A stretch of 60,974 bases of DNA, taken from contig JALSHZ010000081.1 of assembly GCA_026981985.1 (NCBI GenBank), forward strand, positions 1 through 60,974, in the 5' to 3' direction. Origin of the DNA: Gammaproteobacteria bacterium (GTDB taxonomy: Bacteria; Pseudomonadota; Gammaproteobacteria; UWMA-0217). The notes beneath the pieces are model-generated. The model was not told the DNA's origin. It saw only the letters and a list, made by a program, of their open reading frames with translations, and ran no database searches. The translations under genes and the position numbers were made by a program. Shown in pieces: positions 52,274 through 60,974 of this stretch (position 1 is its first letter; each line of letters begins with the position of its first letter).

Positions 52274-53031
52274 TAACTACTCATCGACCCAGCCCGCGCT
52301 GCGGGCACACACCGAAAAGTAACGATGTCACCGATTTAGCCGTTAAGTGGCCATTTGGCAATCTGGTTTTCTTTCCCCTTCGCACGCGCCGCTGACGGGT
52401 GCGACTGGAGGGGGCAACCGGCCATGGATGGCCGGTTGAAGCTTGCGCGGCAGGAAGCCGCTCAAGCTGACCCCGGAAGGCGTGCCCGGCAGCGGAATCA
52501 AGCGTGTGTTGGGGCGTCCTTTTTTGGGTTCCGTTTTTTGGACGAGCAAAAAATGGAACTCGCGCTGTGCGAGAGTGGGTTGGAAGAATCGTAGTGTTGG
52601 TGAGCGCAAAACCCGTACCACCGCCACTCGATATGATCGGCGAGGACGAACAGTGGGAGATTAGCTCTTTCGTCCAATCGCCACCTGGAAATCATGGTGG
52701 TATTGTTTCGTAGCCAATCAAGCGGTGGTGCTTCTGTTCCAGCCCTCTACCACGGCCCCGAGTACCTTTTTGTCAACAGCAACAAAAAGGTACCAAAAAA
52801 TGCCGCCCCGATTGCCCGCTGATTCCTGCGCTTCTCGGCCCAGCCGGGGGGCGGCCGACACGTCCCTTCGTGACGGCCGACGCAGGCCATCCATGGCCTG
52901 CCCCTGCGGGCTGATCCCGGCTGAGCCTGCGATGCTCGGGCGGGCAAAGGGGGTATCAGCGGTTGCCATACGACAGGTTTGGTGGGAAGTTACTTGGAAG
53001 TAGGTAGAAAAATATAACCGTAACTGCTCAG
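52274..53031. repeat. Large palindrome-rich element A
   Basis: About 760 bp of non-coding repeat between the symporter and the CBS-DUF294 gene. It begins TAACTACTCAT and ends by TAACTGCTCAG at 53021. It contains stacked palindromes: CAACCGGCCAT/ATGGCCGGTTG at 52415-52438, a GTACCTTTTTGT/ACAAAAAGGTAC hairpin at 52762-52793, and others. Its sequence recurs in inverted orientation as element B. Several ORFs of 60-120 codons are open but overlap on both strands and are not believed. Bases 52114-52273 show no gene. Confidence 0.8.
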
Positions 53032-57797: not shown

Positions 57798-58613
57798 TAA
57801 CTACTCAGCGACACAGCCCGCTACGCGGGCTGTGTCCCTTTTAAGTAACTTCCCATCAAACTGGTCGCCTGGCAACCACGATTTCCCCTTTGCCCGCCCG
57901 AGCATCGCAGGCGCAGCCGGGATCAGCCCGCAGGGGCAGGCCATGGATGGCCTGCGTCGGCCGTCACGAAGGGACGTGTCGGCCGACCCTCGGCTGGGCC
58001 GAGAAGCGCAGGAATTAGCGGGGAATCGGGGCGGCATTTTTTGGTACCTTTTTGTTGCTGTTGACAAAAAGGTACTCGGGGCCATGGCAGAGGGATGGGA
58101 CGGAAACACCACTGCTTGATTGGCCACGAAACAATACCACCACGCTTTCCAAGTGCTGAAGCCAACAAACCTGATCTCCCGCTTGTTGTCCTCACCATTC
58201 GTATCAAGCGAGGTGGCATCGGTTTCGCGCTCATCAACACTACGGTTCTTCCGATCCACTCTCGCACAGCGCGAGTTCCATTTTTTGCTCGTCCAAAAAA
58301 CGGAACCCAAAGCACCGCTCCATTGCGTCCTGCAATCGCGGTATTCGTACATCCCTGTACATCAAGGACGCCCCAACACACGCTTGATTCCGCTGCCGGG
58401 CACGCCTTCCGGGGTCAGCTTGAGCAGCTTCCTGCCGCGCAAGCTTCAACCGGCCATCCATGGCCGGTTGCCCCCTCCAGGCGCACCCGGCAGCGGCGCG
58501 TGTGAAGGGGAAAGAAAACCAAGTAGCCAGGTGACTATTGAATGGCTGGCTCAGTATCATTTCGTTACTTTTCGGTGTGTGCCCGCGCAGCGGGCTAGGG
58601 CGCTAAGCAGTTA
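57798..58613. repeat. Large palindrome-rich element B (inverted copy of A)
   Basis: An 816-bp element bounded by TAACTACTCAG (57798-57808) and CTAAGCAGTTA (58603-58613), 9 of 11 inverted. Its reverse complement aligns with element A over most of the length, including CAACCGGCCAT/ATGGCCGGTTG (58447-58470) and the GTACCTTTTTGT/ACAAAAAGGTAC hairpin (58044-58075). It has an extra stretch of roughly 50-60 bp near 58310-58375 that A lacks. Overlapping ORFs on both strands are artefacts of its palindromic composition. It fills the acs-TIR gap; nothing else is seen in 57783-58645. Confidence 0.82.
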
Positions 58614-58645
58614 CTAACGCTGAGTGAAGCACCGCATACGCCCCC

Positions 58646-59704
58646 TCACTCCACCTTCCGCAGCCGCGCATGCACCTTGCGCCCACTCTTTTCCGATACG
58701 AACCAGCCAATCAACGAGTCATCGGAGTTCGAGACTGAGAACTCTCCTTTGCCCACGCCAGCAATTTGAAAGCGAAATTTGCCCGGCATGTTTTTGACAA
58801 ACCTGCCACTGCCCGTCCCCTTGCCTGCCAATGTCACCTGCAGCCGTCCGCCCTGAAGTGGCCTGATCATCAGCTCAATGCCTTTATTTTTATTGACCCA
58901 ACGCCCGGACAAGCCTGGCACTGGGTCTTCCTGCTGCACCTCATTCACCGAGGCAGCCGGGGCAACCCTGGGTTTTGCTGCTGCAACTGCGGCTACCGGT
59001 TCGGCCCGCTCCCCAGCATCTGCAAGCACCGTCGTCGGACCACCTGGCGGCTCACGGTCACCCGCTGCTGGCGCAGCAACGGGTTGGTCGGGAGATGAGC
59101 CGCTGCCGGCTGATGGCCAATACCACCAACCAGCCACCAGCAACAACGATGCAATGATGGCTCCGCCGATGGCAGTGCTGCGGGAACGCGGTGCCGGCGC
59201 GGGATCGATGTCATGCGCCTGCTGCTGTTGCAGGCCATCGACCTGCCGAAGAATATCAATCAGACCGGATACGTCATGATCCCAGCGCTGCTGCTTATCC
59301 GAGATTTCGTAGAACTGTTTATCCCGCAACCAGCCAATCTTGCCCAGATCAAGATCCCGCGACAGTCTCGCCCCTTCGATAAAGACGGGAATCACCGCAA
59401 CACCGAGTTCACGCGCCCGCTCCAGTTCCAGCTCGACGTAGTTGACTGGATCATCCTGGCGGCGGCGCCAGATGTCTTCCCAGTGACGCCCGATCACAAG
59501 GACCAGCGCTGCTGCCTCCCGCAGGTTGCGTTCAATAGCCTTGCGCCAGTCACTGCCGCCGCGAATATCCTCGACATCGCGGAACACCTCGTCTGTTCCA
59601 AATGCCTTTTCGAGTTCGTCTTCCAGGCGGGCGACATAGCCGGGGACATCATCACGACGATAACTGAGAAAAATTTTCCTTTTTGCCACGGCGCTGCTCC
59701 CCAT
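58646..59704 (-). CDS. Membrane-anchored TIR-domain protein
   Basis: A 352-residue protein of unknown role. Residues about 8-155 are a TIR domain: RKIFLSYRRDD (first strand and box 1), FRDVEDIRGGSDWRKAIERNL, ALVLVIGRHW, and NYVELELERARELGVAVIPV, where E93 aligns with the catalytic glutamate of NAD-cleaving TIRs. One membrane helix follows at about 178-196, then a Pro/Ala-rich linker (200-270) and a small C-terminal beta-rich domain (about 272-352, LSGRWVNKNKGIELMI). Topology would put TIR in the cytoplasm and the tail in the periplasm. A GTG at 59689 with a better ribosome site could be the true start. It is divergent from the 7TM gene. Confidence 0.85.
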   Translation of the reverse strand: MGSSAVAKRKIFLSYRRDDVPGYVARLEDELEKAFGTDEVFRDVEDIRGGSDWRKAIERNLREAAALVLVIGRHWEDIWRRRQDDPVNYVELELERARELGVAVIPVFIEGARLSRDLDLGKIGWLRDKQFYEISDKQQRWDHDVSGLIDILRQVDGLQQQQAHDIDPAPAPRSRSTAIGGAIIASLLLVAGWWYWPSAGSGSSPDQPVAAPAAGDREPPGGPTTVLADAGERAEPVAAVAAAKPRVAPAASVNEVQQEDPVPGLSGRWVNKNKGIELMIRPLQGGRLQVTLAGKGTGSGRFVKNMPGKFRFQIAGVGKGEFSVSNSDDSLIGWFVSEKSGRKVHARLRKVE

Positions 59705-59825: not shown

Positions 59826-60849
59826 ATGCCCACTTTCCGACCATCGAATCCATTGACGACACTGCTGATGATACTGGCGCTGTTCATAGCCATATGCCAA
59901 GTCACCGTGGCCGGTCCTGTCAATATCGATACTACGTCTTCGGAACCCCCACCGAACACACTGCAATACCTCGAAGACCCTGACGGCAGTCTGACTCTGG
60001 AAGAAATATCATCTCCCGCTTTCGATCACCGCTTTCGACAGAACGAAAGTGACGTGCCACGATTTGGCCGCACCCGCTCCACCTACTGGCTACGCCTGCC
60101 GGTTGTACACAATAACGACCATGATCACTATTTGCTGATCGATCACCCCATCATCGGTACAGCGCAACTCTATGCAGTGCCAATCGCTACCAAGCAAGGC
60201 AGCGAGCCGTCAGCCACAACAAGCCTTGAACGCATCAGTTACCGCACGCCGCTGTTTCGGCTCGATCTGCCACACGGCCAGCCCATGATGCTCTATCTGC
60301 GCGCCTATAACGGCAAGGCGTTGCTGGAATTCCCGATTCGCTTCCTCTCTTCCGAGCGATTACTGCGGCAGAGCATTTTCGACTACGGCTTTTTTGCATC
60401 CATCCTCGTCTCGCTCTGCGTTCTCGCGGCATACAATCTCTTGCTGTACATCAACTTGCGTGAACCCAGCCTGCTGGCGCTGGTAATACTCATTGGCTCC
60501 ACGCTACTGGTGACCTACCAGGACAGCAATCTGCTGCCCTGGCTGGAGCCACTGAACAGCCCGGACAGCTATTTCTTCTCCCTGCCACTGATACTGACGA
60601 TCGCCTCGGCGCTTAACTTCTGGAAGCATGTCAATAACGGGCAAGACCCACTACTGGACAAGATCTGCCGCTGGGTGCCTGCGGCATTGATCGCAACCCT
60701 GCCATTCCTCGGCCTGGTTCCCTCACTGGAACGCGTACTCTACCTGCTCGCCGTCATACTGAGTGCCATCACGCTGCCGCTGATCATTCGCTCCCTCCCC
60801 GGCCTCAATCACACAAGCAGACAAAATGCCATTGCCGCGATTGTTTTTC
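59826..60849 (+). pseudogene. 7TM receptor with extracellular 7TMR-DISMED2 domain, interrupted by an insertion sequence
   Basis: The protein begins MPTFRPSNPL with a signal-anchor (about 9-29), followed by a 7TMR-DISMED2 sensory domain (about 55-180; STYWLRLPVVHNND and YLLIDHPIIGTAQLYAVP) and the first membrane helices of the 7TMR-DISM bundle (from about 190). The reading frame enters an ISAs1-like end at 60850 and stops 44 bases later, before the bundle is complete and before any output domain (kinase, cyclase or GGDEF). The rest may lie beyond the insertion, outside the window. The ATG at 59826 is chosen; a longer upstream frame has no support. Confidence 0.75.
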
Positions 60850-60974
60850 CAGGGCGAGCGCATATAAACTCCCATAAAACCAGCAAGATATGAGATCATA
60901 CAGAGAAACCACATTAGGAGTTTCCCGTGACCGCCTGCTTGATTGAACACTTTTCGCCGTTAGAAGACCCTCGT
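60850..60974 (+). mobile_element. Left end of an ISAs1-family insertion sequence (partial)
   Basis: CAGGGCGAGCGCATATAA at 60850 resembles the terminal repeat of ISAs1-family elements. It is followed 77 bases later by a transposase start. The element runs off the window. Its insertion cuts the 7TM receptor gene. Confidence 0.75.
60927..60974 (+). CDS. ISAs1-family transposase, N-terminal 16 codons
   Basis: A GTG start with AGGAG 6 bases upstream opens a frame reading MTACLIEHFSPLEDPR. IEHFxxLEDPR is the characteristic N-terminus of ISAs1/H-repeat DDE transposases. The gene continues past the window end. Too short for a stronger call. Confidence 0.72.
   Translation, partial: MTACLIEHFSPLEDPR

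Follow-up and report, generated by a model that had tools for sequence, protein, structure and literature searches.

The domain composition, conserved glutamate, predicted barrel fold and gene neighbourhoods of a protein encoded near the end of the window (the whole 60,974-nucleotide stretch of DNA that was analysed) were established here, and they are best and most economically explained, with about even chances, by a SARM1-like TIR NADase that would be tethered in the inner membrane and switched by an extracytoplasmic barrel. We infer the topology in the cell, NADase activity, ligand sensing, trigger, assembly and the defence or other biological role as follows. The N-terminal TIR domain would lie in the cytoplasm, inactive while the chains are dispersed, and the single helix and flexible linker would place the small, lipocalin-like barrel on the periplasmic face of the membrane. 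If the barrel bound (or lost) an envelope ligand, the chains would come together, the TIR domains would assemble and E93 would cleave NAD+, leading either to lethal depletion or to an ADP-ribose-type signal. Where relatives have patatin, SLATT and TPR-S neighbours, this signal could recruit those partners; the TIR protein of the window genome seems to work by itself. An earlier note on this DNA had proposed that the layout might couple an envelope signal to NAD cleavage or signal production, and this proposal gains from the conserved glutamate, the charge pattern around the helix and the separately folded tail, but not from any defence context at the window locus.

Domain layout, predicted membrane helix and predicted barrel

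A TIR domain, one membrane helix and a C-terminal beta domain had been claimed for this gene from the letters of the window, and the open reading frame, Pfam, hydropathy and an AlphaFold2 (AF2) model agree on them (Table 1); within the limits of what sequence can show, the protein's structure is settled. The same layout recurs in four homologues, one of which is cut at its 5′ end.

Table 1. Position in the window of the TIR protein gene, its parts and the divergent neighbouring gene
Feature	Position	Strand	Basis or remark
TIR - TM - beta-barrel gene	58646..59704	-	352 aa, ATG start, unbroken ORF
TIR domain, residues about 9-155	59240..59680	-	Pfam; AF2 model with Foldseek
E93 codon, candidate catalytic glutamate	59426..59428	-	SARM1 Glu column; invariant in 10/10
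Single predicted membrane helix, residues about 176-196	59117..59179	-	Hydropathy and flanking charge, five family members
Pro/Ala/Ser/Gly-rich linker, residues about 197-262	58919..59116	-	Composition; pLDDT under 50
C-terminal eight-stranded beta-barrel (predicted), residues 267-352	58649..58906	-	AF2 on a five-sequence alignment, mean pLDDT 90.9, pTM 0.80
7TMR-DISM sensor gene, 5′ part only, divergent neighbour	59826..60850	+	Pfam; probably outside the system

The single strongest hydrophobic stretch of the window protein covers residues 176-194 (mean hydropathy 1.63), and values of 2.2-2.5 are reached at the matching position in four relatives. Taken alone, the window protein's own helix score is marginal, and the AF2 helix at residues 182-193 has low confidence. 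All five family members have basic residues ahead of the helix, and three of them have none immediately behind it; the window protein shows both features. When the positive-inside rule is applied to these flanking charges, the TIR domain would be cytoplasmic and the barrel tail would lie outside the inner membrane (N-in/C-out). The linker between helix and barrel consists to 64% of P/A/S/T/G/Q in the window protein and varies from 34 to 72 residues across the family.

The tail is confidently modelled as eight strands in sequence, with a three-residue turn as the sole helical part, and it is conserved at 34-39% identity in the four homologues. This bears out the C-terminal beta domain that the note had described, although with a start nearer residue 267 than the proposed 272 (272-352). 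Its description as unrecognised also holds, as structure prediction and searches by Foldseek, Pfam and PDB sequence gave no confident family. Specifically, Foldseek returned lipocalins, fatty-acid-binding proteins, a designed eight-stranded barrel and a D-aminopeptidase (best E 0.01, all above 1e-3; TM-score by query 0.4-0.6, up to 0.64) and no convincing match among viral models, and the barrel has no Pfam family and no PDB sequence match. Because no sequence family matches and the structural matches are weak, it is named lipocalin-like by topology only: the model resembles lipocalins and fatty-acid-binding proteins in topology, without confident family membership. A barrel that acted as a structural spacer or as a protein-docking module would look the same. 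That it is a true periplasmic receptor, which detects a signal from the envelope or from phage entry and relays it via the helix to the SARM1-like NADase, is put forward as an unlikely reading; if true, the protein would correspond to a transmembrane Toll-type receptor, in bacterial form and with the TIR domain itself as the enzyme.

The TIR domain and its candidate catalytic glutamate

Pfam TIR_2 matches residues 11-141 with 49.7 bits (E 6.4e-13), above the curated cut-off of 28 bits, and this part of the AF2 model mostly has pLDDT 78-92. With the full model, Foldseek ranked the TIR domain of SARM1 first, at a TM-score by target of about 0.8 (the targets being isolated TIR domains). A profile of ten TIR sequences (A7), when compared with solved structures, gave SARM1 as the best match (6.6e-13) and C. 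elegans TIR-1 as the next, with three bacterial TIR structure entries scoring far behind both. The glutamate of the profile segment 'dfvrlEietal' aligns with that of SARM1 'DWVHKEIVTAL', and the glutamate in 'DWVHKEI' is the known catalytic residue. Its equivalent in the window protein is E93, which sits in the motif NYVELELERA and occupies the position of the SARM1 catalytic residue in helix alpha-C. This column is invariant in all ten sequences, and the glutamate, which the earlier note had singled out as the candidate catalytic residue, was found in every homologue compared. The TIR domain of the window protein looks catalytically competent.

In a 25-row tree, the ten 'YRR' TIRs form one group (support 96/94), and the SARM1 row branches beside it (85/79); this placement is only suggestive because the SARM1 branch is long. 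With a larger sequence set, SARM1 has been reported to branch within a bacterial clade (PMC13142454). Another study found no bacterial SARM1 homologue, and observed that the frequency of the glutamate does not track reported TIR activity, the residue also being present in TIRs without known NADase activity (PMC7075850).

Gene neighbourhoods of the window gene and its relatives

In the window, the TIR gene comes after acs and an 840-base non-coding stretch. Most of this stretch (57800-58640, about 840 bases) recurs in inverted form at 52274-52995 with about 88% identity, which suggests a multi-copy genome repeat. The gene order symporter, DUF294, exonuclease, acs is shared by the genus-mate G001, where pfk (phosphofructokinase, read from the sequence by eye) comes next, with no TIR gene at the matching locus and no TIR_2 match in its genome. 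Since the genus-mate lacks it, the window TIR gene is accessory. The rest of the window holds housekeeping genes (nuo, pnp, infB, nusA, acs), and therefore a defence island was rejected for the immediate region, on the side of the gene that is known. Of the suggestion that the region is typical of an accessory or defence locus, the first half stands and the second does not.

The neighbour on the other side is a sensory 7TM gene (7TMR-DISMED2, 3e-21; 7TMR-DISM_7TM, 6.5e-8, the latter match incomplete), whose reading frame breaks off near the contig end, about 341 residues in. The earlier note had treated this adjacency as meaningful. The gene is truncated, however, and none of the relatives' loci has a 7TM gene beside the TIR gene, so that the adjacency has no conserved meaning and a linkage to the 7TM sensor was rejected. 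The mobile element that the note had placed here dwindled to the last ~125 bases of the contig, which have no match in a plasmid collection and are too short to identify. The contig stops within about 125 bases of the premature end of the 7TMR-DISM gene, and its end sequence could be the edge of an insertion element.

These surroundings bear on two other explanations. The protein might be a non-enzymatic scaffold that works by TIR-TIR assembly in membrane signalling, possibly together with the 7TM sensor, and does not cleave NAD+; the TIR fold is indeed an assembly module in many proteins, and the two genes point away from each other, with about 120 bases between their start codons. The invariance of E93 in ten sequences, the NADase SARM1 as closest solved relative, and a 7TM gene that is truncated here and a neighbour in no relative all speak against it, and it is considered distinctly unlikely. 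Still more improbable is that a rearrangement left an accessory gene behind at a genome edge, where it decays or lies idle. The gene does adjoin the cut-off 7TM gene and the contig end, has the non-coding repeat on its other side and has a broken homologue in G069, where the TIR-TM reading frame stops before a frame-broken barrel, but the window reading frame is intact, conserved residues are retained in both TIR domain and barrel, and the tail is still 34-39% identical to those of relatives in other families.

A survey of six loci, including the window, did not show the consistent linkage to non-defence housekeeping genes that would have spoken against the note's proposal. Conflict-type neighbours were found at three of them. 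The TIR relative at G003:C11 faces a set of patatin, SLATT_3/DUF4231 and TPR-S genes, the one at G003:C369 adjoins a TPR-S/MAP3K_TRAF_bd protein and a second TIR, and the one at G069:C60 has a patatin gene 11 bases upstream. The G003 and G069 patatins share 53% identity, and PADLOC likens them to CBASS phospholipase effectors (7.9e-43). At both Granulosicoccus loci the TIR gene lies among unrelated genes, and in the window no TPR-S, SLATT or patatin gene stands beside it as far as the contig reaches. The first three loci speak for a function in immunity or programmed death, and the other three for a protein that can work by itself or serves another purpose.

Some details of these loci can be added. 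The patatin, SLATT/DUF4231 and TPR-S genes of G003:C11 are co-oriented (L032:7345-15594), with a PhoD-like phosphatase and a caspase-domain gene beyond the TIR gene. At G069:C60 (L031:4965-7396), a 192-aa protein, the patatin and the TIR-TM protein are encoded in a tight three-gene run; the 192-aa protein has no Pfam match and by eye resembles a SLOG-type fold.

Such neighbours raise the alternative of a conflict network built on an NAD+-derived signal, in which an ADP-ribose-type messenger would be read by TPR-S/SLOG-type proteins and relayed to patatin/SLATT effectors. The barrel would then only position the protein, and the tether would keep messenger synthesis close to the membrane effectors. 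The patatin, SLATT_3/DUF4231 and TPR-S genes at G003:C11, the TPR-S/MAP3K_TRAF_bd protein with the second TIR at G003:C369, the patatin directly upstream at G069:C60 and the CBASS-like character of the patatins all favour it. However, no such partners accompany the window gene or either Granulosicoccus copy, and neither the G003 patatin nor the G003 TPR-S protein has a match in the window genome; a network of this kind is possible, if on the whole rather unlikely. The likeness of the family to patatin/SLATT/TPR-S nucleotide-signal clusters thus extends to the two G003 relatives and the G069 relative, whereas the window gene has none of these genes beside it. The only TPR-S domain of the window genome belongs to a CHAT protein on another contig (G000:C121, L103:5049-10373), a 1775-aa protein with DUF7379, alpha/beta hydrolase-like, CHAT and TPR-S parts in a conflict-type architecture.

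Known systems and distribution of the layout

Under the preferred reading as a membrane-tethered NADase, the closest comparison is with SARM1, which is the top profile match among solved structures and the best fold match, and shares the catalytic glutamate column. SARM1 is regulated by its ARM and SAM domains in the cytoplasm, whereas the partner regions of the window protein are a membrane helix and a barrel. Bacterial TIR_2-TM proteins with the motif F[IL][SN]YRR.D belong to the same lineage (96/94) and also have a TIR domain followed by a helix and the conserved glutamate, but their own tails are Ig/ASH-like, W-starting beta domains, charged repeats or nothing recognisable.

With ThsB of Thoeris the window protein has in common a TIR domain with the catalytic glutamate and weak PADLOC model matches (E 0.004-0.03). 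ThsB, in contrast, is soluble and paired with ThsA, which was not seen here: the neighbours up to the contig end are acs and the 7TMR-DISM gene, with no adjacent ThsA-type effector, and the NCBIfam model ThcB4 reaches 28.4 bits against a cut-off of 220. Thoeris membership was rejected on these profiles and neighbours. Pfam found no SAVED, STING, APAZ or STAND fusion in the window protein, and the PADLOC matches cover its TIR part only; the fusion domains required of CBASS/SAVED-TIR, TIR-STING, SPARTA and Avs effectors are absent, and membership in these systems was likewise rejected.

The combination of TIR, helix and this barrel is rare. At E 0.01 the barrel profile matched six of 369 genomes of the class, strongly in the window genome (G000), in G003 (two loci) and in G355, weakly in G069, with two doubtful; over 399 genomes of the phylum the window genome was the only clear match. 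An alignment-based pattern scan of GTDB genomes returned L058 (the G355 locus) and L059, both from Granulosicoccus, along with the two G003 loci (L060, L061), and a single-sequence scan of these genomes for the window protein gave no match. G003, which carries two TIR-helix-barrel loci, is in the same family as the window genome, and the two Granulosicoccus genomes have one such gene each.

A helix after a TIR domain is, by comparison, ordinary. TIR_2 is present in 66 of 276 sampled genomes of the class, and about half of the TIR ORFs examined (19/36) have a predicted helix beyond residue 100, a rough figure because the ORF taken for L023 was out of frame and in a few cases the helix is distant from the TIR domain. 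The novelty is therefore this barrel tail, and the contrast with soluble Thoeris-type TIRs that the earlier note had drawn is weaker than implied. Within the same TIR lineage, L004 ends in an ASH/Cep192-like Ig domain, L009 in charged repeats and L005 in a W-starting beta domain, which is treated as different from the barrel because its alignment to the barrel profile was unconvincing (probability only 12.9%). Differing tails on a kept TIR domain and helix form the pattern expected of a constant output with a swappable sensor input.

The window protein appears to be a new and rare form of a widespread type of bacterial suicide or immune protein. Cytoplasmic cues are the trigger for most of the bacterial TIR effectors that have been characterised, and a lineage close to SARM1 with a fixed enzyme and helix and exchangeable outer tails would offer a test of whether envelope sensing can be coupled to NAD+ loss. 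The same lineage may also give insight into the regulation that SARM1-like TIRs had before they reached animals.

A viral or phage origin of the gene is unsupported, with no relatives of the window protein found by a pattern search of IMG/VR or in a phage collection. G003 has a further YRR-type TIR-TM gene (G003:C138, L101:1-2086), whose tail is a charged repeat; it lies near a gene with a weak DUF4231 match.
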